Source: Acetobacteraceae bacterium (GTDB lineage Bacteria; Pseudomonadota; Alphaproteobacteria; Acetobacterales; Acetobacteraceae). Taken from it: a stretch of DNA of 64,000 bases. The notes beneath the pieces are model-generated. The model did not search any database. It was not told where the DNA came from and saw only the letters and a program-made list of their open reading frames with translations. A program made the position numbers and the translations under genes. Of the stretch, positions 33,747 through 58,920 are shown piece after piece (within the stretch, counting starts at the first letter, position 1; every line of letters begins with the position of its first letter). Location: positions 1 through 64,000 of the forward strand of contig CANBXZ010000001.1 in NCBI GenBank assembly GCA_947373495.1, given 5' to 3'.

Positions 33747-33903
33747 GCGGTGGCTCCCGGCTGGGCTGGTGGGGCGGTTCGTCAACCCGGGGCGCCACTG
33801 CCCAGCCCCGCGCCAGCCTGCCCGGTGCGCTGGCACCGTGCTGCGGCATGAAGCGTATTCCGGCAGGCAGCGCCCCGTTTGCACGAACCTGAGGCGTTGC
33901 TTC

Positions 33904-33918
33904 GCAAGCCGTGTGCCA
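33904..33918 (-). promoter_or_regulatory. Candidate sigma-54 promoter for the minus-strand importer
   Basis: On the minus strand the site reads TGGCACA-CGGC-TTGC with ten bases between GG and GC. Only the last base of the -24 half differs from consensus. The start would fall near 33892, about 145 nt before the binding-protein ATG. It lies in the gap between the RidA stop and the importer genes. Confidence 0.65.
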
Positions 33919-33946: not shown

Positions 33947-34372
33947 TCATGCCGTGGCGGCGATGCCTTCGGGCCGGTAGACGAGCAGGTCGATCTCCAC
34001 CAGCGCATCCTTGGCCAGCCCGGTGGTGCCGATGCAGGTGCGCGCCGGCAGCCGGCCGGCTGGCCAATAGCTGGCATAGGTGGCGTTCATCGCGGCGTAG
34101 TCGCGCTGGAATTCGGTCAGGAACACGCGGGCCTGCGCCACCATGGCAAGGTCGCAGCCAATGCCGGCCAGCACGAGCTTCAGGTTTTCCATCACCGCCC
34201 GGGTCTGCGCTTCCACGCCCACCGGCAGCGGCAGCGAGTTGTCCACCGGGTCGCACGGCATCTGCCCGGTGATGAAGGCCCAGGGGCCGATGGAAACCGC
34301 ATGGCTGAACGGCGCCACGCGGTCCGGGCCATTGTCCAGCGTGTGGAAGAACATCGGCGGGGGAAGGGTCAT
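33947..34372 (-). CDS. RidA/YjgF-family protein (second)
   Basis: This is a 141-residue Rid-family protein. It carries VSIGPWAFITGQMPCD, EAQTRAVMENLKLVLAGIGCDLAMVAQARVFLTEFQ and the C-terminal PARTCIGTTGLAKDALVEIDLLVYRP. That stretch contains the Arg (PARTC) that corresponds to the substrate-binding Arg of canonical RidA. It is more canonical than the Rid protein at 7938. It may remove imine/enamine intermediates formed when the imported compound is degraded. It is divergent from the MarR gene with 62 nt between them. Confidence 0.88.
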   Translation of the reverse strand: MTLPPPMFFHTLDNGPDRVAPFSHAVSIGPWAFITGQMPCDPVDNSLPLPVGVEAQTRAVMENLKLVLAGIGCDLAMVAQARVFLTEFQRDYAAMNATYASYWPAGRLPARTCIGTTGLAKDALVEIDLLVYRPEGIAATA

Positions 34373-34420
34373 CGGGGCCTCGTCAACGGGTGGGCGCCCA
34401 GGCGGCGCGGCGCGGGACTT

Positions 34421-34435
34421 GCAATGCCGGGGCCA
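34421..34435 (-). promoter_or_regulatory. Candidate sigma-54 promoter for the RidA/importer operon
   Basis: The minus-strand sequence TGGCCCC-GGCA-TTGCA has exact GG-N10-GC spacing. The -12 half is perfect and the -24 half has two mismatches. It overlaps the start of the divergent MarR gene, and the predicted start near 34409 gives a leader of about 37 nt for RidA. Confidence 0.5.
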
Positions 34436-34929
34436 TGTCCGAAGCTCCCCGCCCGCGACGCCCCGCCGCGGAAGACCTGGCCGCGCTGCTGCTCGCCCGC
34501 CCCGGCGTGCTGGTGCGCCGGCTGCACCAGATCCATTCCGCCATGTTCCAGGAGGAATGCGCCGCGTTCGGCGTCACCCCGGTGCAGTACAGCCTGCTCA
34601 CACTGGTGGCGGCCGCCCCGGGGCTGGACCAGGGCGGCGCCGCCGGCGCGCTGCGGCTGGACCGCTTCACCACCGCGGATGTCATCAAGCGCCTGGTCGG
34701 CGCCGGGCTGCTGCGGGTGCAGGCCGGGGCTGACCGCCGCACCCGGCTGCTGTGGCTGACACCACACGGCGCCCAGGTGCTGGAGGCGATGCAGCCCAGC
34801 GCCGGCCGCGCGCATGACCGCCTGGTGGAACCGCTTTCCGGCCGCGAGCAGGCCACGCTGCTGCGCATGCTGAAGCGCCTGGTGGACCGCCACGCCGCGC
34901 TGGGCGCGGTGGCGCCCAAGGTCAGGTAG
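34435..34929 (+). CDS. MarR-family transcriptional regulator
   Basis: This is a 164-residue winged-helix regulator. The DNA-binding part shows FGVTPVQYSLLTLVAAAPGLDQGGAAGALRLDRFTTADVIKRLVGAGLLRVQAGADRRTRLLWLTPHGAQ, the usual helix-turn-helix and beta-wing pattern with DRRTR. Such proteins repress nearby catabolic genes until an aromatic or other ligand binds. It is divergent from the RidA operon and convergent, with an 8-nt overlap, with the molybdenum hydroxylase genes. ATG 34435 was preferred over an in-frame start 15 codons upstream. Its target cannot be assigned. Confidence 0.88.
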   Translation: MSEAPRPRRPAAEDLAALLLARPGVLVRRLHQIHSAMFQEECAAFGVTPVQYSLLTLVAAAPGLDQGGAAGALRLDRFTTADVIKRLVGAGLLRVQAGADRRTRLLWLTPHGAQVLEAMQPSAGRAHDRLVEPLSGREQATLLRMLKRLVDRHAALGAVAPKVR

Positions 34930-35395
34930 CGGCGCCGCGCCGCGCGGCCAGCACGCCCAGGATGGCGCGGACGATGCCGCGATAGCCGGTGCAGCGGCAC
35001 AGGTTGCCGGCCAGTTCCTCGCGTACCCGCGCCTCATCGGCATGCGGCAGGCGCAGCACGATGTCCCGCGCCACCACCAGCATGCCCGGCGTGCAATAGC
35101 CGCATTGCAGCGCATGCTCGGCGCTGAAGCCCTCGCGCAGGGCCGCCATCACCGGGTCCTCGGCGAAGCCCTCGATGCTGCGCACGCTGGCACCGGCACA
35201 GGCCCCGGCATGCAGCAGGCAGGACCGCGCCGGGGCGCCGTCCACCTCCACCGTGCAGGCGCCGCAGACGCCGTGCTCGCAACCGATATGGGTACCGGTC
35301 AGCAGCAGTTCACCGCGCAGCAGGTCGGCCAGGTGGGTGCGGGGTTCGGCCTCCAGCGTCGTGGCCTGGCCATTCACCGTCAGGGAAAGCTTCAT
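34922..35395 (-). CDS. Molybdenum hydroxylase, [2Fe-2S] subunit
   Basis: This 157-residue small subunit of a xanthine-dehydrogenase/CO-dehydrogenase-type hydroxylase has two clusters. A plant-ferredoxin cluster is bound by GCEHGVCGACTV and a later Cys (SCLLHA). A helical-domain cluster is bound by CGYCTPGM and NLCRCTGY. It passes electrons from the Mo site to FAD. It is the last gene of the operon amidohydrolase-large-medium-small subunit, with ATGA overlaps at each junction. Its 3' end overlaps the MarR gene by 8 nt. Confidence 0.92.
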   Translation of the reverse strand: MKLSLTVNGQATTLEAEPRTHLADLLRGELLLTGTHIGCEHGVCGACTVEVDGAPARSCLLHAGACAGASVRSIEGFAEDPVMAALREGFSAEHALQCGYCTPGMLVVARDIVLRLPHADEARVREELAGNLCRCTGYRGIVRAILGVLAARRGAAT

Positions 35396-36183
35396 GCTGC
35401 TGCCTCCGCCGCGTGGCGCAATGCCACCCGGGCCAGGGATGCGCGCCAGGGGTCTTCCAGGCCAAGCGTGGCCACCAGCCGCGCCGCTTCGGCGGCCGGC
35501 GCGGCCCGCAGTGCAGCGGCATCCGCCAGCACCAGCGGGGCGGCGTCCAGCGCCGCCAGCACGGCGCGCGGCGCGGCGCCCGGCACCGCCAGCAGGCAGG
35601 CGGTGGCCTTGGAGAACTCGCCCGGCTTGCGGCAGAACTTCCAATGCCCCCAGCGCGTGGCCTGGGGCAGCACCGGCAGTTCGATGGCGCGCAGCAATTC
35701 ATCCGCCCGCAACGCGGTTTCGAACACGCCCAGCACGAAGCCAGCCAGCGGCACCCGCCGTTCCCCCTGTGGGCCCAGCAGCACGGCATGGCCGGGGAAG
35801 GCGGGCAGTACCGCCACCCAGTCCGCCGCCGGGTCGGCATGGGCGAAGCTGCCGCCGATGGTGCCGCGGTTGCGCACCGGCCGATAGGCGATGCGCCGCG
35901 CCACGCTGGCGAGGATCTCGCCCAGCCGGCCCGGCACGGCGCCATCCTCGATGGCGGCATGGGTGGTGCCGGCGCCGATCCGTACCACCTCGCCGGCCAG
36001 TTCCACCCCGGCATAGCCGGGCAGGTGGCGCAGGTCCGCCACCGCTTCGGGCAGCGCCAGCCGCAGGTTCAGCATCGGGCCGAGCGACTGGCCGCCGGCC
36101 ACCGGCCGGGCCCCTTCGCCCAGCAGCGCCAGCGCCGCGTTCCAGTCCGCCGGGCGGGCATAGGTGAAGGCGGCGGGCTTCAT
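35392..36183 (-). CDS. Molybdenum hydroxylase, FAD-binding subunit
   Basis: This is a 263-residue medium subunit with the FAD-binding fold. ARPVAGGQSLGPMLNLRLALPEAVADL and RNRGTIGGSFAHADPAADW match the two FAD-contact motifs of CoxM-type proteins. A C-terminal CO-dehydrogenase flavoprotein-like domain follows. It overlaps both neighbouring subunit genes by 4 nt. The acceptor may be NAD, a quinone or a cytochrome and cannot be told from the sequence. Confidence 0.92.
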   Translation of the reverse strand: MKPAAFTYARPADWNAALALLGEGARPVAGGQSLGPMLNLRLALPEAVADLRHLPGYAGVELAGEVVRIGAGTTHAAIEDGAVPGRLGEILASVARRIAYRPVRNRGTIGGSFAHADPAADWVAVLPAFPGHAVLLGPQGERRVPLAGFVLGVFETALRADELLRAIELPVLPQATRWGHWKFCRKPGEFSKATACLLAVPGAAPRAVLAALDAAPLVLADAAALRAAPAAEAARLVATLGLEDPWRASLARVALRHAAEAAA

Positions 36184-38510
36184 GCTAGCGCCCTTTCGAT
36201 CGCGGCCAGCACCCGCGCCGGCGTGGCCGGCAGGTCCAGCACCTCCGCGCCGCGGCCCGCCAGCGCGTCGTTGATGGCGTTGAGGATCGCGGCCGGTGGG
36301 CCGATGGCGCCGCTTTCGCCGATGCCCTTCTGGCCGAAGCGGGTCCAGGGGCTGGGGGTTTCCATGTGGTCGATGCGGATGTCGGGCACCTCGGTGGCGC
36401 CGGGCAGCAGGTAGTCCGCCAGGGTGCCGGCCAGGGGCTGGCCCTCGCTGTCGAACGGCATCTCCTCATACAGCGCGGTGCCGATGCCCTGGGCGGTGCC
36501 ACCCAGCACCTGGCCGTCCACGATCATCGGGTTCACCAGCGTGCCGCCATCCTCCACGATGACGTAGCTTTCCAGCGTCACGCAGCCGGTCTCGGTATCC
36601 ACCTTCGCCACCACCGCATGCGCGGCATAGCTGTGGGTGCCGGTGTCGGGGTCCGGCCGGTAGCCGGCGGTTACTTCCAGGCCGCCGCGGTCGACATCCG
36701 CCGGCAGGTTCTGCGGGCTGCGGAACCAGGTGCGGGCCACCTGGTCCAGCGTCACCTTGGCCTCGCCGGCATGCACCGCGCCATCCCGCAGCACGCAGGC
36801 GGCGCGCGGCGCCTGCAGCAGCGCGGCGCCGATCGCCAGCGCCCGTTCGCCCAACTGGGTGCAGGCTTCGGCCACCGCGCCGCCGGCCATCACCATGGCC
36901 CGGCTGCCCCAGGTGCCGGTGGAATAGGGCGTCAGCGCGGTATCGCCATGCACCACCCGCACCCGGGCCGGGTCCACGCCCAAAATCTGGTGCGCCACCT
37001 GGGCCAGCGTGGTTTCCAGCCCCTGGCCGTGGCTGTGCACGCCGGTGCGGATCTCCAGCACGCCATCCGGGGTGAAGCGCGCCTGCGCCTGCTCGAACCC
37101 CGGCACGAAGGGAATGCCCCAGCCGTGGTAGACGCTGGTGCCGTGGGCGCCCTGTTCGCAGAACACCGCCAGCCCGAAGCCCACCGCCTCGCCCGCCGCC
37201 TGCCGCGCCCGGATGCCGGCGACATCCACGGCCGCCACGGCGCGGCGCAGCGCCTCGGGGTAGTCGCCGCTGTCGAACACCTTGCCGACCAGGTTGCGGT
37301 ACGGCATCGCCTCGGGCGGCACCAGGTTGGCCTGGCGCACCTGTTCGGGCGGCAGCTTCAGCTGGCGGGCCAGCGCGTCCAGCGTGGTTTCCATGGCGTA
37401 GCACACGCCGGTACGCGCCACGCCCCGATAGGGCAGGATGGGCGGCTTGTTGGTGCAGGCGGAAACCGTGTGGAAGCGGAAGCGCGGCAGCGTGTAGGGG
37501 CCGGGGAAGATGCTGCCGATCTGCGCCGCTTCCAGGCAGGCGCTGAACGGATAGGCGGAATAGGCGCCGGCATCCACGGTGGCATTCACCTCCACCCCCA
37601 GCAGCTTGCCGCCGGCATCGGCCCAGGCGGTCACCTCGTAATGGTGCTCGCGGCAATTGGCATTGGCGGTCAGTTGCTCCAGCCGGTCCTCCAGCCAGCG
37701 CACCGGGCGGCCGAGCCGCATGGCCAGCGCGGCGCAGGCCAGTTCCTCGGCCAGCAATATCGCCTTGTAGCCGAAGCCACCGCCCACATCCGGGGAGACG
37801 ACGCGGATCTGGCCCTCATCCAGCCCGAGGCATTCGGCCAGGCCGGTCTTGGTGACATGCGGCTGCTGCGTGGCGGTGGTGACCACCAGCTGTTCCAGCC
37901 GCGGGTCCCATTCCGCCAGCACGCCACGGCCCTCGATCGGCGCCATGCTCTGCCGCGCGGTGCGCAGCCGGCGCACCACCTTGGCGGCGGCCACGGCGTC
38001 GAGGTCCGACAGGTCCTCGTCCCGCCGGGTTTCCAGGAAGGCGTTGTCCGGCCAATGCTCGTGGATCAGCGGCGCCCCGGGGGCGCGGGCGGCGAGCATG
38101 TCGCTGACCACCGGCAACGCCGCGTAGTCCAGCTCGCAGGCCGCCACCAGGTCCTCGGCCTCGGCCCGGCTGGGGGCGACGCAGGCGGCAATCACCTCCC
38201 CGACATGGCGCAGCTTGCCCTGGGCCAGCGCCGGCTGTTCCGAGACGCGGAAGCCCGGCAGCGCCGAATTGGCGCGGATCGGGCCGATCTCCGGCAGGTC
38301 GGCGGCGACGAAGACGCGCTGCTCAGCGCCGGCCGGCTTGGTCACGCCCAGCAGCCGCGCATGCGCCACCGGGCTGCGCAGGAAGGCCACCTCCAGCGTG
38401 CCGGCCGGGCGGATATCGCCGACATAGCGGCCGCGGCCCAACAGGAAGCGGGCGTCTTCCTTGCGGCGCAGGCTGGCGCCGACGCCGTGCCCGGAACGCG
38501 GCGCCGTCAC
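36180..38510 (-). CDS. Molybdenum hydroxylase, large (molybdopterin-binding) subunit
   Basis: This is a 776-residue catalytic subunit of the xanthine dehydrogenase/aldehyde oxidase superfamily. GGGFGYK at residues 243-249 and PYRGVARTG near 360-368 surround the Mo cofactor. The base catalyst Glu is Glu732 in KGIGESG. The CO-dehydrogenase active-site loop with Cys (AYRCSFR) is absent, so the enzyme should hydroxylate an aldehyde or N-heterocycle rather than oxidise CO. It is cotranscribed with an amidohydrolase upstream, a partnership seen in purine, nicotinate and other heterocycle pathways. No Mo-cofactor maturation gene (XdhC type) is present in the window. Confidence 0.92.
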   Translation of the reverse strand: MTAPRSGHGVGASLRRKEDARFLLGRGRYVGDIRPAGTLEVAFLRSPVAHARLLGVTKPAGAEQRVFVAADLPEIGPIRANSALPGFRVSEQPALAQGKLRHVGEVIAACVAPSRAEAEDLVAACELDYAALPVVSDMLAARAPGAPLIHEHWPDNAFLETRRDEDLSDLDAVAAAKVVRRLRTARQSMAPIEGRGVLAEWDPRLEQLVVTTATQQPHVTKTGLAECLGLDEGQIRVVSPDVGGGFGYKAILLAEELACAALAMRLGRPVRWLEDRLEQLTANANCREHHYEVTAWADAGGKLLGVEVNATVDAGAYSAYPFSACLEAAQIGSIFPGPYTLPRFRFHTVSACTNKPPILPYRGVARTGVCYAMETTLDALARQLKLPPEQVRQANLVPPEAMPYRNLVGKVFDSGDYPEALRRAVAAVDVAGIRARQAAGEAVGFGLAVFCEQGAHGTSVYHGWGIPFVPGFEQAQARFTPDGVLEIRTGVHSHGQGLETTLAQVAHQILGVDPARVRVVHGDTALTPYSTGTWGSRAMVMAGGAVAEACTQLGERALAIGAALLQAPRAACVLRDGAVHAGEAKVTLDQVARTWFRSPQNLPADVDRGGLEVTAGYRPDPDTGTHSYAAHAVVAKVDTETGCVTLESYVIVEDGGTLVNPMIVDGQVLGGTAQGIGTALYEEMPFDSEGQPLAGTLADYLLPGATEVPDIRIDHMETPSPWTRFGQKGIGESGAIGPPAAILNAINDALAGRGAEVLDLPATPARVLAAIERALA

Positions 38511-39790
38511 GCCGCATCCGCGAGCACGGGCTGCGGCAGGATGACCGCGGTGGCGTCGTAGCGCACCCCGGCGCGCAGGCAGAAGGCCGGCCGCAGCAGG
38601 CGTTCCGCCACCACCTGGGTGCCTTCGTTGTCCTCCAGCCGGAAGCGACCACGGTCGTCATGCAGCACCGAGACATCGGCCCCCATGCCGACGCGCAGCG
38701 CGCCGATCTCAGCCCCCATGCGCAGCATGGCGGCGGGGTTGCTGCTGACCATCGGCACCACCTGCTCCAGCGGCAGGCCCAGCGCCAGCATGCTGGTCAT
38801 GGCCGAGGCCAGCGAGAAGTTCTGGTGCCCGGCGAACATGTGGTTCTCCAGGTCGTCCGGGTGTTCGCTGGGGGTGCCGCGCGGCTTCGGCACCGTGGTG
38901 TTGTAGCCGTGCATGTCGGCGCCCAGCGTGTCCGGCACCACGCCGGCGTCGATCACCAGGCGGGCCATGTTGAAGCTGAAGTGGCTGCCATGGCCGACAT
39001 CGGTCTTGAGGCCGGCGGCCAGGGCTTCGCGCACCACCGGGTGCAGCTTGCCGTGCCGGTCCACGAAGCCGCCGGGGTGGCGGGTGAAGGGGTGCGCCAG
39101 GATGTCGCCGGGGCGCATGATCTCCAGCATTTCCGGCAGGATGGTATCGGCATCATAGCTGCGGCCGTCGCCCGGCATGGGCCAGAGTTGGCCGAAATGG
39201 ATGTACAGCGGCTGGTCCAGCCCGCGGGCGATCTCGGCGGCCTTGCGCATGGCGTCGATGCCCCAGCGGGCGAAGCCGGCGATTTCCGCATGGCCCTTCA
39301 CGCCGCGCACCAGGTCCGCGTTTTCCTTGCCGGAACGGATGGTGTCGGCCACCGCGATGCAGTCCGGGCCGTACAGCTCGGGGTAGTAATGCCCTTCCAG
39401 CCCGCCGACCATGTAGGCCGAGATGAACGCCAGCACCCGGCTGGCCGAGGGCTTCACGATGTATTCCCGGAAGCCCGGGAAGGTCAGCACCGAGGCACCG
39501 CCCTGGTCCACCAGCGTGGTCACGCCGGAATGCACGCCCACCATGTCCGGGTTCAGGCCGAAGCGGCCGCTGACGTACTGGTAGACATGCGCGTGGGTGT
39601 CGATCATGCCCGGCAACACCAGCTTGCCAGCCACGTCCACCACCTGCGTCGCCGGGCCGGGAAGGGCGTTGCCGATGGCGGCGATACGGCCATCGCTGAC
39701 CGCCACGTCCATGATGCCATCCAGCCCCTGGGCCGGGTCGATGACCCGGCCGCCGCGCAGGATGAGGTCGAAGGGCTTGGGGTCGGTCAT
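38507..39790 (-). CDS. Amidohydrolase-superfamily metal-dependent hydrolase
   Basis: This 427-residue enzyme has the dihydroorotase/D-aminoacylase-like barrel: LILRGGRVIDPAQGLDG at the N-terminus and the metal motif MIDTHAHVYQYV. Further candidates for metal binding are Lys in GVKGHAE and His in LYIHFG and ILAHPF, and ADMHGYN supplies an Asp. Members cleave cyclic amides or N-acyl amino acids, and several are misnamed. It is the first gene of the operon with the molybdenum hydroxylase and overlaps the large subunit gene by 4 nt. A perfect sigma-54-like promoter lies 42 nt before its ATG. Confidence 0.85.
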   Translation of the reverse strand: MTDPKPFDLILRGGRVIDPAQGLDGIMDVAVSDGRIAAIGNALPGPATQVVDVAGKLVLPGMIDTHAHVYQYVSGRFGLNPDMVGVHSGVTTLVDQGGASVLTFPGFREYIVKPSASRVLAFISAYMVGGLEGHYYPELYGPDCIAVADTIRSGKENADLVRGVKGHAEIAGFARWGIDAMRKAAEIARGLDQPLYIHFGQLWPMPGDGRSYDADTILPEMLEIMRPGDILAHPFTRHPGGFVDRHGKLHPVVREALAAGLKTDVGHGSHFSFNMARLVIDAGVVPDTLGADMHGYNTTVPKPRGTPSEHPDDLENHMFAGHQNFSLASAMTSMLALGLPLEQVVPMVSSNPAAMLRMGAEIGALRVGMGADVSVLHDDRGRFRLEDNEGTQVVAERLLRPAFCLRAGVRYDATAVILPQPVLADAA

Positions 39791-39831
39791 GCGGGATCTC
39801 CGATCTCGGGCAGTCGGTCGCACCGGGCTTC

Positions 39832-39846
39832 GCAAGGGCCGTGCCA
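39832..39846 (-). promoter_or_regulatory. Candidate sigma-54 promoter for the amidohydrolase/molybdenum hydroxylase operon
   Basis: The minus strand reads TGGCACG-GCCC-TTGC, a full match to the -24/-12 consensus with exact spacing. The predicted start near 39820 leaves a leader of about 30 nt before the ATG at 39790. Confidence 0.75.
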
Positions 39847-39902
39847 TGGCGGCGGCCACCGGAGGCGCGGCGCATCCCCTGCCACGCCGGGCGCCGGGCG
39901 GT

Positions 39903-39932
39903 GCGGAAATGTGGCTGTACGCACATTTCCGC
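39903..39932. promoter_or_regulatory. 11-bp perfect inverted repeat, candidate activator site
   Basis: The arms GCGGAAATGTG (39903-39913) and CACATTTCCGC (39922-39932) are perfect complements with an 8-nt spacer. The repeat sits between two divergent sigma-54-like promoters, about 57 nt from the edge of the left one and 77 nt from the right one, where enhancer-binding proteins usually sit. A hairpin role is less likely because neither operon reads through it. Confidence 0.55.
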
Positions 39933-40008
39933 GCCACTGCACCACCCTGCTGCCCATGCCGTGGGCGGCATCTCCTCAAGGCGCCGGTACGTGCGGCCAT
40001 GCTGGCGC

Positions 40009-40023
40009 TGGCACCGCCCTTGC
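40009..40023 (+). promoter_or_regulatory. Candidate sigma-54 promoter for the SDR/oxygenase/Liv operon
   Basis: TGGCACC-GCCC-TTGCT has ten bases between GG (40010-40011) and GC (40022-40023). One base in the -24 half differs from consensus. The SDR ATG lies 33 nt beyond it. Confidence 0.72.
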
Positions 40024-40055
40024 TTGGCCCCGGCTGTCGAGGGGTGGCAAGGGAA

Positions 40056-40853
40056 ATGGCGGAAGTGGAACCAGGCGTGGCCGCAGCCGCCGCCGGGCAG
40101 GCGTTGCGGGGTCGCGTGGCCGTGGTGACCGGCGGCGCCTCGGGCATCGGCTTCGCCCTGGCGCGCGGCCTGGCGCAGCGTGGCGCCCGGGTGCTGCTGG
40201 CCGACCTGGCCGGCGCCTCGGCAGCGGCCGAGACCTTGCGCGCCGAGGGCCTGGAGGCCGCCGGCTGCACCGCCGACGTGGCCAGCGAAAGCGCCACCGC
40301 CGCCATGGCCGCCGCCGCCGAGGCCAGCTTCGGCGGCCTCGACATCCTGGTGAACAACGCCGGCATCTACACCAGCCTGACACCCCGCCCGTTCGAGGAG
40401 CTGGACCTGGAGGAATGGCGCCGGGTGCTGGAGGTGAATGTGCTCGGCACCTTCCTCAGCTGTCGCGCGGTGCTGCCGGCCATGCGGCGGCGTGGCGGCG
40501 GACGCATCATCACCATCAGTTCCGGCGTGGCCTTCAAGGGCAACCCGTACATGGCGCACTACGTCGCCAGCAAGGGCGCGGTGGTCTCGCTGACCCGCGC
40601 GCTGGCCACCGAGCTGGGCCGCCACAACGTGCTGGTGAACAGCGTGGCGCCCGGCTTCACCCTCAGCGACGGCGTGCTGCGCAACCCGGTGCTGGTGGCG
40701 GGGGTGCAGGAGCCTTCGCTGCGCGGCCGGGTGCTGGCGCGGGACATGCTGCCGGGCGACCTGGTGGGCGCCGTGTGCTTCTTCGCCGGGCCGGACGCGG
40801 CCTTCATCACCGGGCAGACGCTGGTGGTGGATGGCGGGTCGTATTTCCATTGA
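40056..40853 (+). CDS. Short-chain dehydrogenase/reductase
   Basis: This is a 265-residue classical SDR oxidoreductase. It has the cofactor motif TGGASGIG, the NNAG motif in DILVNNAGIY, the catalytic Ser in ITISSGVAF, and Tyr and Lys in YVASKGA, ending with TGQTLVVDGGSYFH. The residue after the second strand is Asp (LLADLAG), which favours NAD. It would oxidise an alcohol or reduce a ketone of the compound handled by this operon. It starts the operon SDR-oxygenase-LivKHMGF. The ATG at 40056 was chosen since the conserved part begins 20 residues later, and the ribosome site is weak. Confidence 0.87.
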   Translation: MAEVEPGVAAAAAGQALRGRVAVVTGGASGIGFALARGLAQRGARVLLADLAGASAAAETLRAEGLEAAGCTADVASESATAAMAAAAEASFGGLDILVNNAGIYTSLTPRPFEELDLEEWRRVLEVNVLGTFLSCRAVLPAMRRRGGGRIITISSGVAFKGNPYMAHYVASKGAVVSLTRALATELGRHNVLVNSVAPGFTLSDGVLRNPVLVAGVQEPSLRGRVLARDMLPGDLVGAVCFFAGPDAAFITGQTLVVDGGSYFH

Positions 40854-40866
40854 ACCGGGTGCGCGC

Positions 40867-41865
40867 ATGATCCCCGTCATCGACCTGGCAGCGGCCCGGT
40901 CCGGCAGCGCGGCGGACCGCCTGCGCATCGGGCAGCAGATCGACCGCATCTGCCGCGAGATCGGCTTCTTCAGCATCACCGGCCATGGCGTGCCGCTGGC
41001 GCTGATGGACGGGCTGCGCGACACCGCGAAGACCTTCTTCGCCCAGCCACTGGCGGTGAAGCAGCGCGCCATCCACCCGGTGCAGGGCACGCCGCGCGGC
41101 TACATTGCACTGGGGGTGGAGGCGCTGGCCTACGGCAACGGCGCCACCACGCCGCCGGACCTGAAGGAATACTACCACTTCGGCCGGCAGCACTGGCCGG
41201 ACCAGCCCTACTACACCAGCGCCGAGGGCCAGCGGTACTTCCTGCCCAACCTGTGGCCGGAACACCCGCCCGGCTTCGCCGCTGCCGCCGCCGCCTACTA
41301 CGCCGCCATGGAGGCGCTGACCCAGGACCTGATGCGCATCGCCGCGCTGGGCCTTGGCATCGACGAGTACTTCTTCGACGACAAGATCGACCGCCACATC
41401 ACCGCGATGCGGCTGAACCACTACCCCGAGCAAGCCATGCCGCCGGCCCCTGGCCAGCTGCGCGCCGGCACCCATACCGACTACGGCCTGCTGACCATCC
41501 TGAACGGCGAGGACGTACCCGGCGGCCTGCAGGTGCAGACCCGCGCGGGCGCCTGGCTGGACGTGCCGACCCAGCCGGAGAACTTCGTCATCAACATCGG
41601 TGACCTGCTGATGCGCTGGACCAATGACCGCTGGGTGTCCAACCCGCACCGCGTGGTGAACCCGCCGGCCGAGGCCGCGCGCAGCCGGCGGCTGTCGATC
41701 GCCTTCTTCCACCACCCGAATTACGACGCGCTGATCGAGTGCATCGCCCCCCCGGGCGAGGCCCGCTACGCGCCGGTGCTGTCCGGCGCCTACCGCGACG
41801 AGAAGTACCGCCAGACCCGCCTGGCATCCGCCCAGGCCCAACCCGAGGAGCCACCCGCATGTTGA
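40867..41865 (+). CDS. Isopenicillin-N-synthase-like 2-oxoglutarate/Fe(II) oxygenase
   Basis: This is a 332-residue enzyme of the plant/fungal-type 2OG oxygenase family (IPNS-like). It opens IPVIDL and GFFSITGHGVP. The iron triad is His203 and Asp205 (HTDYG) and His261 (NPHRV). Arg275 and Ser277 (RLS) form the usual 2-oxoglutarate clamp. Bacterial members hydroxylate amino acids, nucleobases or hormones. It sits 13 nt after the SDR gene and overlaps the LivK-like gene by 7 nt, so its substrate is probably what the Liv-type importer brings in. Confidence 0.88.
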   Translation: MIPVIDLAAARSGSAADRLRIGQQIDRICREIGFFSITGHGVPLALMDGLRDTAKTFFAQPLAVKQRAIHPVQGTPRGYIALGVEALAYGNGATTPPDLKEYYHFGRQHWPDQPYYTSAEGQRYFLPNLWPEHPPGFAAAAAAYYAAMEALTQDLMRIAALGLGIDEYFFDDKIDRHITAMRLNHYPEQAMPPAPGQLRAGTHTDYGLLTILNGEDVPGGLQVQTRAGAWLDVPTQPENFVINIGDLLMRWTNDRWVSNPHRVVNPPAEAARSRRLSIAFFHHPNYDALIECIAPPGEARYAPVLSGAYRDEKYRQTRLASAQAQPEEPPAC

Positions 41866-43010
41866 ACCGCCGCTCTGTCCTGCTCGCCGGCCTCGCCATG
41901 CCGGCCTTGGCCACCCGGGGCTTCGCCGCCGACGCCATCAAGATCGGCATGACCCAGCCGCTGACCGGCGCCGTGGCCGCTTCCGGCAACTACGTGGCCA
42001 ATGGCGCCAAGATCGCGACCGAGGTGCTGAACCGCGCCGGCGGCGTGCTCGGCCGGCCGCTGGAGCTGGTGCTGGAGGACAACAAGTCCAACCCGCGCGA
42101 AGCCGTGGCCAGCGTGGAGAAGCTGGTGCTGCGCGACCGCGTGCCGGTGCTGATCGGCGCCTGGTCCAGCACCTTCACCCTGGCGATCATGCCGAAGCTG
42201 ATGGAGTACAAGGTGCCGATGGTGGTGGAGACCTCCTCCGCCGCGCGCATCACCACCTCCGGCAATCCCTATGTGTTCCGCATCGCGCCGACCAGCGAGA
42301 TGGAAGCGGTGGCCTTCGCCGGCCTGCTCGGCAAGTTCAGCCCGCCGATGCGCAAGATCGACTTCCTGTCGGTGAACAACGACTTCGGCCGCGGCGCCGC
42401 CGAGAAGTTCGCCGCCTCGCTGGCCGCCCGCGGCATCACGGTGGGCAAGACCGAGACGATGACGCCGGAAGCCACCGACCTGGCGGCACAGCTGACCGCG
42501 CTGAAGCAGACCGACAGCGACACCGTCTTCGTCACCACCGGCGTGGAGCAGATGACGCTGGCGCTGCGCCAGGCGGTGGAACAACGCCTCGGCAAGCGCA
42601 TCGTCACCACCGGCGGCAGCTTCCCCGACCAGCTGATCGCCAACCCGCTGCCCGCCGGCAATGAGAGCTTCCACATCCTGTTCTACGCGCCGTGGTTCCC
42701 GGAACGCGCGCCGCACCCGGCGATTGCCGCGACCTACACCGCGGAATGGAACAAGAAGGGCTGGGAGTTCGCCGGCCTGACCGAAGGCTTCCGCGGCTAC
42801 GACGCCATGTTGACCGTGGTGGAAGCCATCCGCCTGGCCGGCAAGCCGGAAGCCGAGGCGATCCGCGCCGCGCTGTGGAACGTGAAGATCCCGGGCGTGA
42901 ATGGCGACATCGCCTTCACCAAGGACGGGCCGGCGGGGCAGGAGAGTGGGCAGAACCGGCCCAACGTCTCCATCCTCAAGCTGGCCGAAGGCAAGACCAG
43001 CCTGCTGTAG
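41859..43010 (+). CDS. Branched-chain amino acid-type ABC importer, solute-binding protein
   Basis: This is a 383-residue periplasmic protein of the LivK/peripla_BP_6 family. A Tat-like leader (NRRSVLLAGLAMPALATRGFAA) precedes IKIGMTQPLTGAVAASGNYVANGAKIATEVLNRAGGV. A DVPVLIG-like segment (DRVPVLIGAWSS) and the VETSSAARIT loop contact ligand in this family. Despite the name, members bind amino acids, amides, urea or aromatic acids. It is coupled to the oxygenase gene by a 7-nt overlap. Confidence 0.9.
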   Translation: MLNRRSVLLAGLAMPALATRGFAADAIKIGMTQPLTGAVAASGNYVANGAKIATEVLNRAGGVLGRPLELVLEDNKSNPREAVASVEKLVLRDRVPVLIGAWSSTFTLAIMPKLMEYKVPMVVETSSAARITTSGNPYVFRIAPTSEMEAVAFAGLLGKFSPPMRKIDFLSVNNDFGRGAAEKFAASLAARGITVGKTETMTPEATDLAAQLTALKQTDSDTVFVTTGVEQMTLALRQAVEQRLGKRIVTTGGSFPDQLIANPLPAGNESFHILFYAPWFPERAPHPAIAATYTAEWNKKGWEFAGLTEGFRGYDAMLTVVEAIRLAGKPEAEAIRAALWNVKIPGVNGDIAFTKDGPAGQESGQNRPNVSILKLAEGKTSLL

Positions 43011-43015
43011 CCTTC

Positions 43016-43888
43016 ATGGACCAACTCCTCCAGCACCTCGTCAACGGCACGGTTCTCGGCGGCACCTATGCGCTGCTGGGGATCGGGCTGACGCTGATCT
43101 TCGGCGTCATGCGCGTGGTCAACTTCACCCATGGCGAGCTGTATGCGTTCGGCGCCTACATGACCTACGCCTTCGTCTCCCTGCTGGGGGTGAACTTCTA
43201 CCTGGCGCTGGCGCTGGCCACGCTGGCCGGCGTGGCGCTGGGCGCGGCGCTGGAGCTGGTGCTGCTGCGGCGGATGCGTCGGGCCGACATCGACAGCGTG
43301 ATGCTGGTGATGATCGGTGCCTCGCTGGTGCTGCAGAACGCCGAGATGTGGGCCTGGGGCGGCGTGGCCAAGCTTATTCCCAACCCCTTCGCCGGCTCGC
43401 CGCTGGTGCTGGGGCCGGTTTCGGTGCTGCCGCTGCGGTTGTTCGTGCTGGGCGTTTCGGCCGCGCTGCTGCTGGGCTTCTGGCTGATGCTGGACCGCAC
43501 CCGCGCCGGCGTGGCCATGCGCGCCACCTTCCAGGACCCGGAGACGGCGGCGCTGATGGGGGTGCGCGTGGGCTGGGTGAACACCGCCACCTTCGCCATC
43601 GGCTCCGGCCTGGCCGCCGCCGCCGGGGCGCTGCTGGGGCCGGTGTTCATGGTCAGCCCCACCATGGGCGACCTGGTGGGGCTGAAGGCCTTCGCCATCG
43701 TCATCCTGGGCGGGCTGGGCAGCCTGCCCGGCGCCACGCTGGGCGGCTTCGCGCTTGGCTTCGTGGAGGAGTTCGCCGGCGGCTATCTCTCCACCGAATA
43801 CCGCGACGCCTTCGGCTTCCTGCTCATCATCCTGGTGCTGGCGCTGAAGCCGCAGGGGCTGGTACCGGCGAAGGAGCGCATCGGGTGA
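43016..43888 (+). CDS. Liv-type ABC permease, LivH-like
   Basis: This is a 290-residue inner-membrane permease with about eight hydrophobic segments. The opening LVNGTVLGGTYALLGIGLTLIFGVMRVVNFTHGELYAFGAY is a LivH hallmark, as are MRATFQDPETAALMGV and FAIVILGGLGSLPGA. It starts 5 nt after the LivK-like stop and overlaps the LivM-like gene by 4 nt (GTGA). Confidence 0.92.
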   Translation: MDQLLQHLVNGTVLGGTYALLGIGLTLIFGVMRVVNFTHGELYAFGAYMTYAFVSLLGVNFYLALALATLAGVALGAALELVLLRRMRRADIDSVMLVMIGASLVLQNAEMWAWGGVAKLIPNPFAGSPLVLGPVSVLPLRLFVLGVSAALLLGFWLMLDRTRAGVAMRATFQDPETAALMGVRVGWVNTATFAIGSGLAAAAGALLGPVFMVSPTMGDLVGLKAFAIVILGGLGSLPGATLGGFALGFVEEFAGGYLSTEYRDAFGFLLIILVLALKPQGLVPAKERIG

Positions 43889-44868
43889 GCAAGCTTCTGC
43901 CCTGGCTGTTCGTGGCCGCGCTGGCGCTGCTGCCGGTGGCCTTCCCCGACCCCTACCTGCTGGCGGTACTGACCTCGGCCGGCATCTTCATCATCGGCGC
44001 CATCAGCCTGAACCTGCTGCTGGGTTATACCGGCCAGCTCAGTCTCGGCCATGTCGCCTTCTTCGGCCTGGGGGCCTACACCAGCGCGCTGGCCGCGCTG
44101 GGGTTCGACATCGGCATCGGCTTCGGCCTGCGCATCACGCTGGCACCGCAACCGGCATGGCTGGGCTTCATCGCCGCCATCGTGGTGGCGGGGGGCTTCG
44201 GCTGGCTGCTGGGGCGGCTGGCCTTCCGGGTGCGCGGCGCCTACTTCGTCATCATCACCATCTGCTTCGCCCAGGTGCTGCGCATGGTGGCGCTGAACTG
44301 GATAGAGCTGACCCAGGGGCCGATGGCGCTGATCTCCATTCCGCCGTTCTCGCTGTGGCTGCCGGGCCAGGGCGTGGTGGCGCTGTACAGCAAGGCGCAG
44401 AACTACTGGCTGGTGCTGGCGGTGGCGGTCGTGGCCTTCCTGGTGGTGCGCCAGGTGGTGGAATCCCGCATCGGCCGGGCGCTGGTGGCGCTGCGGTCCA
44501 ATGAATCCCTGGCGCGCTCGGTGGGCATTCGCGTCACCCACTACCTGGTCATCGCCGCCGTCATCTCGGCCGGCATCGCCGGCGCAGCGGGCAGCCTGTT
44601 CGCGCATTACGTCCGCATCGTCGACCCCGACGTGTTCCTGTTCATCTACACCGTCACCATGGTCATCATGGTCATCACCGGCGGCAAGGGCACGCTGTGG
44701 GGCCCGGTGGTGGGTGGGCTGATCTTCGGCCTGATCCCGGACCTGCTGCGCGGCCACGCGGCACCGGAAGCGCAATGGGTGGCCTATGGCGTGGCGATGA
44801 TCCTGTTCGTGATGTTCCTGCCGCGCGGCATCGTGCCCGCGCTGGCCAGCCTGCGGCCCCGGCCATGA
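43885..44868 (+). CDS. Liv-type ABC permease, LivM-like
   Basis: This is a 327-residue inner-membrane permease with about nine hydrophobic segments. LNLLLGYTGQLSLGHVAFFGLGAYTSALAAL is the family signature, followed by ALRSNESLARSVGI and MVIMVITGGKGTLWGPVVGG. It uses a GTG start inside the LivH stop (GTGA) and overlaps the LivG-like gene by 4 nt. It pairs with the LivH-like protein to form the channel. Confidence 0.92.
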   Translation: MSKLLPWLFVAALALLPVAFPDPYLLAVLTSAGIFIIGAISLNLLLGYTGQLSLGHVAFFGLGAYTSALAALGFDIGIGFGLRITLAPQPAWLGFIAAIVVAGGFGWLLGRLAFRVRGAYFVIITICFAQVLRMVALNWIELTQGPMALISIPPFSLWLPGQGVVALYSKAQNYWLVLAVAVVAFLVVRQVVESRIGRALVALRSNESLARSVGIRVTHYLVIAAVISAGIAGAAGSLFAHYVRIVDPDVFLFIYTVTMVIMVITGGKGTLWGPVVGGLIFGLIPDLLRGHAAPEAQWVAYGVAMILFVMFLPRGIVPALASLRPRP

Positions 44869-45642
44869 GCCCCCTGCTGCGGGTGGAAAACCTGGCGGTG
44901 CATATCGGCGGGCTGGTGGCGATCGCAGATGCCAGCTTCAGCGTGCCCGAGGGCCAGGTGGTCAGCCTGATCGGCCCGAACGGCGCCGGCAAGACCACCG
45001 CCTTCAACGTCATCACCGGCTACATGCGCCCGACCGCCGGCCGCATCCTGTTCGATGGCGCCGAGATCACCGGCCTCAGCCCCGACCGCATCGCCGAGCG
45101 CGGCATTGTCCGCAGCTTCCAGCGCACCAGCGTGTTCACCGGCTGCACGGTGCTGGAAAACGCGCTGATGGCACTGCATCGCCGCGGCAGCGCCGGGCTG
45201 CTGGGCGCGCTGCTGCGGCTGCCCTCGGCACGGCGGGAGGAAGCCCGGCTGCGGGCGGAAGCCTGGGCCATGCTGGAGTTCGTCGGCCTGGCCGGGCGGG
45301 CGGAAACCCCGGCCGAGGTGCTGGCCTATGGCGAACAGCGCCGGCTGGGCATTGCGCTGGCCGCCATCGCCAGCCCGCGCCTGCTGCTGCTGGACGAACC
45401 CGCCGCCGGGCTCAACCCGTCCGAAACCGCCGAATGCATGGCGCTGATCCGGCAGTTGCGGGACCGCGGCATGACCGTGCTGCTGGTGGAACACGACATG
45501 CCCATGGTGATGCAGATCTCGGACGCCATCGTGGTGCTGAACCAGGGCCGCATCATCGCCACCGGCGCGCCGGCCGAGATCCGCCGCCACCCCGAGGTCA
45601 TCCGCGCCTATCTCGGCAGCGGCGAATACCAGGAAGCCGGCC

Positions 45643-45656
<14 letters not shown>
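44865..45656 (+). CDS. Liv-type ABC ATPase, LivG-like
   Basis: This is a 263-residue ATPase with Walker A GPNGAGKTT at residues 37-45, signature LAYGEQRRLGIALAAI, Walker B LLLDEPAAGLNPSET and H-loop VEHDM. It has the C-terminal LivG tail (EIRRHPEVIRAYLG). It is joined to LivM by an ATGA overlap and to LivF by a 14-nt overlap. Confidence 0.92.
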
Positions 45657-46331
<675 letters not shown>

Positions 46332-46350
<19 letters not shown>

Positions 46351-57762: not shown

Positions 57763-58890
57763 TCACTCCTGGCGCCGCACCACCACCGCCACCGGGCCGC
57801 CACCATCCGGCCCCTGGTGCTCGGCCCCGCCGGAGACGAACAGTTCCGTCCGCCCCACCGCCGCGGCGATCACCCCGCCCACCAGCGCCCGCGCATGTCG
57901 CGTGGCGTTGATGTCGCTGTCGTCCCACATGATGTGCCGGCTGCCGCGAATGCGCCCGGTGGAGGCAGGTTCCGCCTTGGCCAGCACCGCCACCAGGCGG
58001 TCCCGCGCCGCCTCGTCCAACTGGCCGCCACCGGTGGCGAAGCCGGCGCTGGCCAGGGCGCGCTGCACCGCCGGCAGGTCGATGGCGTCGGCCATCACGT
58101 CGTGTGCCATCAGCAGGTCGCCGGCCCAGGCCGGGCTGTTGCCCAGCACCACCACCTCGCCCCGGGTCAGTTCCACCCCGGCCGAGCAACTGGCGCGGCC
58201 GGAGAACAGCGACCAATCGGCCCCCACCACCGCATCCGCCAGCACGGCCTCACCCACCTCGCCCAAGGCCAGCGCCACCCCCAGCGCCGAGGCGCCGCGC
58301 GACAGGCCCATGGAATGATAGGTGTCCTCGGTCGCCACGCCCTGGCCGCGCGCCTTGGCGGCGGCGATGCGGTCATTGGTCAGCAGCGGGCATTTCACTT
58401 GTACGTAGTGCACCTGGGCGGGGTCGGTCAGGCCGGCCTGCGCCATCGCCGCGCGCACCGCCGCCGCGGTGGCGTGCAACTGCGCCATGCGGCCGAGTTC
58501 CTCGGGGGCGAATTCGGCGGTGAAGGCGGTGCCGATGGCCAGGGCGCCGGCCGGGTTGGGCGCCGCCGCTTCCCGTCGCACCGCCAGCACCAGGAAATGC
58601 GGCGAAAGCCCGCCCTCGGTGCCGCCCGACATCACCAGCGCCACCCGCGCCTGCACCGCCTCCGCCGTGCTGCCCAGCCGGGCCGCCAGCATGTGGCTCA
58701 GGGCTTCCACCGCGTAGGCGCGGGTGAAGTCATTGACGCAGCCATTGCCCTCGGTCTTGCCGAGGATGGCCACGACCTCGGCCGGGGCCAGCAGCCCCTG
58801 GTCGAACAGCGCGGCCACGGCGGCGGCGTCCCCCGGGTGGCGGGCCGGCACGCGGTACAACAGGGCGCGACGGGTGGTGGTGGTGGGCAT
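57763..58890 (-). CDS. Ring-opening amidohydrolase (cyanuric acid hydrolase/barbiturase family)
   Basis: This is a 375-residue member of the rare AtzD/TrzD/barbiturase family, which hydrolyses the amide ring of cyanurate or barbiturate and is built of three similar units, each with a Ser-Lys pair. Visible candidates are Lys45 (GKTEGNG) with Ser88 (MSGGTEGG), Lys166 (VQVKCPLL) with a Ser in RASCSAGVE (234 or 236), and Lys305 (LAKAEP) with Ser353 (VSGGAEHQGPDGGG). GGAGGA precedes the ATG at 58890. The sequence does not separate cyanurate from barbiturate use. A sigma-54-like promoter lies directly upstream. Confidence 0.9.
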   Translation of the reverse strand: MPTTTTRRALLYRVPARHPGDAAAVAALFDQGLLAPAEVVAILGKTEGNGCVNDFTRAYAVEALSHMLAARLGSTAEAVQARVALVMSGGTEGGLSPHFLVLAVRREAAAPNPAGALAIGTAFTAEFAPEELGRMAQLHATAAAVRAAMAQAGLTDPAQVHYVQVKCPLLTNDRIAAAKARGQGVATEDTYHSMGLSRGASALGVALALGEVGEAVLADAVVGADWSLFSGRASCSAGVELTRGEVVVLGNSPAWAGDLLMAHDVMADAIDLPAVQRALASAGFATGGGQLDEAARDRLVAVLAKAEPASTGRIRGSRHIMWDDSDINATRHARALVGGVIAAAVGRTELFVSGGAEHQGPDGGGPVAVVVRRQE

Positions 58891-58920
58891 GGTGATTCCT
58901 CCGGCGAGGCCACCAGCCAT

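Follow-up and report, generated by a model that had tools for sequence, protein, structure and literature searches.

The 265-nt gap (39791-40055) that separates two divergent operons in the window, the whole stretch of 64,000 nucleotides analysed here, is on the evidence of its sequence a real, conserved control region with two probable inputs. The operon to its left (minus strand) encodes an amidohydrolase and a molybdenum hydroxylase, and the one to its right (plus strand) an SDR oxidoreductase, a 2-oxoglutarate/Fe(II) oxygenase and a Liv-type transporter. We consider it reasonably probable that the gap works in both directions as a sigma-54 region under nitrogen control, in which NtrC would activate both promoters from a dyad that we call D2, and a MarR protein at a second dyad, D1, would repress them until its ligand is present.

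Layout of the divergent gap

The elements of the gap and the genes around it are as follows.

39846-39831, minus strand: left sigma-54 promoter TGGCACGGCCCTTGCG, one mismatch to TGGCAC-N5-TTGCW, facing the amidohydrolase/molybdenum hydroxylase operon
39903-39932: dyad D1, GCGGAAATGTG-GCTGTACG-CACATTTCCGC, 30 bp with exact 11-bp arms, putative operator for the MarR protein encoded in the cluster
39951-39967: dyad D2, TGCCCATGCCGTGGGCG (TGCCCA-N5-TGGGCG), missed in the initial annotation, proposed NtrC enhancer
40009-40024, plus strand: right sigma-54 promoter TGGCACCGCCCTTGCT, perfect match, facing the SDR/oxygenase/Liv operon
38507..39790, minus strand: amidohydrolase, PRK09237-type
36180..38510, minus strand: molybdenum hydroxylase large subunit
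35392..36183, minus strand: molybdenum hydroxylase FAD subunit
34922..35644, minus strand: molybdenum hydroxylase 2Fe-2S subunit (ORF bounds; true start probably internal)
34390-34929, plus strand: MarR-family regulator, antiparallel to the operon and flanked by the 2Fe-2S and RidA genes (Pfam MarR, 1.3e-7; ATG 34435 as likely start), not noted in the initial annotation
33947..34372, minus strand: RidA-family protein
33903-33918, minus strand: third sigma-54-like site TGGCACACGGCTTGCG, ahead of the NMT1-type ABC transporter genes and with RidA on its other side, likewise not noted in the initial annotation
40056..40853, plus strand: SDR oxidoreductase
40831..41865, plus strand: 2-oxoglutarate/Fe(II) oxygenase, DIOX_N
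41739..46350, plus strand: Liv-type ABC transporter (binding protein, two permeases, two ATPases)

The initial annotation of this DNA had described a 265-nt divergent gap with two sigma-54 sites and an 11-bp dyad, and all of these are in place; its count of eleven genes, four to the left and seven to the right, agrees with the Pfam assignments. It had called the left sigma-54 site perfect and the right one near-perfect. Both sites exist, but the labels were swapped, as the left site carries the single mismatch.

Sigma-54 sites were defined as GG-N10-GC elements with the TGGCAC-N5-TTGCW consensus that point at genes; both gap sites have this form and face the two start codons. The genome has 14 perfect TGGCAY-N5-TTGCW sites (3 with the reversed control), and it encodes rpoN. 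Weak matches (two mismatches or fewer) show no enrichment across the window (30 observed, 44 expected). A scan of the window with Rfam returned tRNAs only and no RNA element in the gap. Control of the gap by sigma-54 is strongly supported by sequence criteria. A site similar to the third one, at 33903-33918, occupies the corresponding position in four congeners.

The two gene groups probably take up and oxidise one compound that contains nitrogen, and we infer that the pathway yields nitrogen. Another N-heterocycle enzyme is encoded about 18 kb from the gap: a ring-opening amidohydrolase of the AtzD/TrzD type, from the cyanuric acid/barbiturate family (57763-58920, minus strand; Pfam 2.4e-147).

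Conservation and helical phasing of the elements

We compared 12 Acetobacteraceae genomes, including that of the window, which carry an amidohydrolase orthologue of at least 79% identity; the named loci in this set include Belnapia rosea, Roseomonas rosea and R. acroporae. A sigma-54 site with 9-10 consensus matches lies upstream of the amidohydrolase in all 12. The second, divergent site was found in nine and was not seen in G168, G059 and G161, the last of which has a different divergent neighbour. D1 is kept as AAATGTG-N8-CAC or a close variant in 10 of the 12 genomes; the perfect 11-bp arms are specific to the window genome, and in its relatives the outer arms are imperfect. D2 is complete in eight genomes and partial in G005 and G003, and no clear D2 was seen in G168 and G059; all four of these have D1, with two D1-like copies each in G168 and G059. 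G063 and G090 have no D1, yet D2 and the two sigma-54 sites are present in both. Among four members of the genus, 60 of 79 positions (76%) are invariant within the four elements, against 38 of 187 (20%) in the rest of the gap.

The distances between the elements follow a regular pattern. The centre of D1 lies 27, 29, 38, 38, 49, 49, 60, 60, 71, 71 or 116 bp from the left promoter, in steps of about 11 bp (best period 11.0; p about 0.002 against random spacings, calculated on distinct values). The centre of D2 lies 69-71, 80-81, 92, 92 or 113 bp from the same promoter (best period 10.8; p about 0.001, calculated likewise). For both series, shared ancestry makes the effective number of cases smaller. 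The spacings from D2 to the right promoter (48-51 bp) and from D1 to D2 (42-43 bp) are nearly constant. We read the series as probable selection for a single face of the helix. The divergent sigma-54 promoters and the joint control of both operons that had been proposed at the outset are supported in that the sites and the spacings between elements are kept across genera.

Most of the more distant homologues (L034-L051, 47-66% identity) are without the sigma-54 arrangement. Several of them have an GTCAGTATACTGAC-type palindrome just 5' of the gene in place of the sigma-54 site, which suggests another repressor operator. A sigma-54-like site appears again upstream of the amidohydrolase in many loci of Betaproteobacteria, Gammaproteobacteria, Xanthobacter and Bradyrhizobium.

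Candidate regulators at D1 and D2

An exact dyad of the D1 type is not expected by chance (0 in shuffled windows), and a search of the 4.58-Mb genome that allowed up to 3 mismatches gave no second copy of D1. The initial annotation had proposed to look for the dyad near other sigma-54 sites of the genome; the core was not found at the other sigma-54 promoters that we read. Across 397 genomes of the order the core gave seven matches (reversed control, 0). Six of them map to this gap in genomes already examined, and the seventh (G460) fits this locus in R. aerilata, to which we assign it; none lies at an identifiable second locus. A role for D1 as a generic sigma-54 enhancer was rejected on these grounds, the core being confined to this locus and absent from the other promoters.

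The presence of D1 follows that of the MarR gene. A MarR orthologue is present in 11 of 11 genomes with D1 and in none of three without it, although the genomes are related to one another and the 11 cases do not represent 11 independent events. Ten of the D1 genomes have orthologues of 59-81% identity, on the contig of the cluster in nine and on another contig in G059. G063 and G090 have no orthologue (G063 has only a 43% paralogue elsewhere), and two further genomes fit the pattern: D1 and the orthologue occur together in R. aerilata and are both missing from the L061 genome. Since D1 is confined to this locus and co-inherited with the MarR gene of the cluster, it is better read as a putative repressor site, the operator of this MarR protein, than as an activator site. 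Many MarR repressors autoregulate, though this trait does not define the family. No D1-like site was found at the MarR gene itself, and D1 as an autoregulatory site was rejected for this reason.

In 22 loci of Beta- and Gammaproteobacteria a related MarR gene lies divergently beside the amidohydrolase, and the same MarR family is so placed in Xanthobacter. Of these 22 gaps, 11 contain CGTG-N6-CACG palindromes (0.2 expected); their spacer is 6 bp, compared with 8 bp in D1. Seven loci of Xanthobacter, Rhodopseudomonas and Bradyrhizobium (L063, L064, L065, L067, L068, L070 and L072) carry an ACGAAGCATGCTTCGT-type palindrome just 3' of the sigma-54 -12 element, adjoining a MarR gene. A motif common to D1 and the Xanthobacter palindromes (CGAA-N6-TTCG) was considered and dropped, as the sequences are unrelated.

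Relatives of the cluster's MarR protein with solved structures include PcaV, HosA and BpsR, which are repressors of aromatic or nicotinate catabolism. The similarity is low (3e-9 to 5e-9 for BpsR), and the sigma-54 type of the gap promoters is a difference from the PcaV, HosA and BpsR systems. Of the BpsR ligand residues within the alignment, which we matched by reading, Arg26 and His32 are conserved and His23 is replaced by Val. Nicotinate degradation, whose first step is a hydroxylation by NicAB, is under the control of BpsR, and BpsR responds to 6-hydroxynicotinate (PMC6837509).

For D2 the evidence comes from other promoters. The dyad in the window has the form TGC-N11-GCG, compared with the NtrC spacing TGC-N11-GCA, and this type recurs, in small numbers, at other sigma-54 promoters including glnK-amtB. 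TGCCCA-N5-TGGGCA was found at glnK-amtB of G003 and G059 and in variant forms in G005 and G168; the glnK promoters of the window genome's own genus have no clean D2. TGCC-N9-GGCA occurs at five other groups of sigma-54 promoters (0.2 expected), few cases in all, and a CGCG-N11-CGCG dyad shows a higher raw excess at sigma-54 promoters. Several other perfect sigma-54 sites in these genomes precede genes for nitrogen scavenging, namely rutA-like, nirB and transporters of amino-acid and nitrate type, with names assigned by reading the translations. Promoters of the NtrC/sigma-54 regulon (glnK-amtB, rutA, nirB) resemble the gap in having a sigma-54 site and, upstream, a palindrome akin to TGC-N11-GCA. 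The consensus of the enteric NtrC site is TGCACC-N5-GGTGCA, from which the variant of this lineage, TGCCCA-N5-TGGGCA, differs. Of the two dyads, D2 is more likely to be the NtrC enhancer, given that palindromes of its type are also seen at glnK-amtB and at other sigma-54 promoters of nitrogen-scavenging genes. At another locus, L009 (G000:C4, near 28006), tandem repeats, each with a sigma-54-like site GGGTGGCATATGGCTTGC, lie ahead of a gene for an amino-acid binding protein.

The sets of sigma-54 activators were also compared, with NtrC, FlbD and the response regulator types identified by their match to those of the window genome and NtrX by its place 3.8 kb from ntrC. The window genome, which is 85% complete, encodes NtrC with an intact GAFTGA motif, FlbD and two other response regulators, and the NtrC orthologues of its relatives are 84-97% identical. 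NtrC, NtrX and FlbD are present in G168 (99% complete), together with one weak partial match, and in G015, G161 and G090 (98-100% complete), together with one more response regulator each. No one-component activator of the XylR/AcoR/PrpR type was detected in these four near-complete genomes, and a dedicated sigma-54 activator that senses the substrate is disfavoured for this reason. Within about 6 kb of the cluster, no dedicated activator was found in the named relatives searched, except at two Xanthobacter loci. Given the lack of a dedicated activator, the nitrogen-scavenging genes at other sigma-54 sites and the D2-type palindromes there, NtrC at D2 is likelier, and would be the most economical reading.

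A two-input model and its alternatives

The favoured model builds on what is seen in the sequence: the elements, their conservation and helical phasing, the co-occurrence of D1 with MarR and the D2-like sites at other nitrogen promoters. Under nitrogen limitation, the presumed signal, phosphorylated NtrC would bind D2 and activate both sigma-54 promoters through looping; from the centre of D2 to the predicted start is about 75 bp on the right and 138 bp on the left. The cluster's MarR protein would bind D1, between the D2 enhancer and the left promoter, and block activation of both operons, acting as a repressor and not as an activator. It would be released by a ligand, probably the substrate of the pathway or an early hydroxylated product. 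The predicted starts lie about 96 and 117 bp downstream of D1, so such repression would occur by anti-looping or competition and not by simple occlusion. Counting against the model are this upstream location of D1, the lack of D1 at the MarR gene, the 6-bp spacer in Beta- and Gammaproteobacteria and the D1 genomes with no clear D2.

In the initial annotation D1 itself would be the enhancer from which one sigma-54 activator could switch on both operons. D1 lies at enhancer distance from both promoters, it is helically phased to the left promoter even in G168 and G059, and duplicate copies such as those of these two genomes are common for enhancers. However, a site confined to one locus in 397 genomes demands a dedicated activator, which several near-complete relatives do not have; D1 also tracks the MarR gene and is missing from G063 and G090, where the two sigma-54 sites and D2 remain. 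We therefore regard this reading as improbable, and the annotation was probably wrong on what binds D1. That MarR at D1 is a co-activator, or an architectural protein that replaces IHF, would suit the upstream position and phasing of D1 and the genomes with an imperfect or missing D2. We hold it to be quite improbable, as the solved relatives PcaV, HosA and BpsR act as repressors (for BpsR, PMC6837509) and the palindromes of Burkholderia and Xanthobacter relatives lie just 3' of the sigma-54 -12 element, in a repressor position. The activator could also be NtrX, FlbD or a LuxO-like response regulator instead of NtrC. NtrX and FlbD are likewise present in the relatives examined, but the nitrogen-scavenging neighbours of other sigma-54 sites and the D2-like sites at glnK-amtB indicate NtrC, and FlbD is by homology a flagellar regulator, which makes this reading very improbable.

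The favoured model of NtrC activation and MarR repression has a parallel in the hut (histidine) genes of Pseudomonas, where a single intergenic region with a sigma-54 promoter is a target of both NtrC and the repressor HutC (PMC8871633). Like the gap, the region between hutCD and hutU combines a sigma-54 promoter, NtrC activation for nitrogen use and a pathway-specific repressor. It differs in that HutC is a GntR-type protein, the repressor here being of the MarR family, and in that the gap has two divergent sigma-54 promoters that share sites; no involvement of CbrB was seen here. We found no paper that describes such a pairing of a MarR operator with an NtrC/sigma-54 promoter. More tentatively, and in our view doubtfully, a MarR repressor between an NtrC enhancer and a promoter may form an anti-looping switch that serves both divergent sigma-54 promoters simultaneously; indels of whole turns would have held the enhancer, the operator and the left promoter on one helix face during evolution.

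The region would offer a compact natural case of two-input control, by nitrogen shortage and substrate, over two divergent sigma-54 promoters, and the evolutionary series of spacings in steps of about 11 bp bears on enhancer looping as a constraint on promoter evolution. The data also suggest a lineage-specific NtrC site, TGCCCA-N5-TGGGCA, for Acetobacteraceae and, for an amidohydrolase/molybdenum hydroxylase pathway that is widespread in Proteobacteria and as yet uncharacterised, a candidate regulator and regulon.
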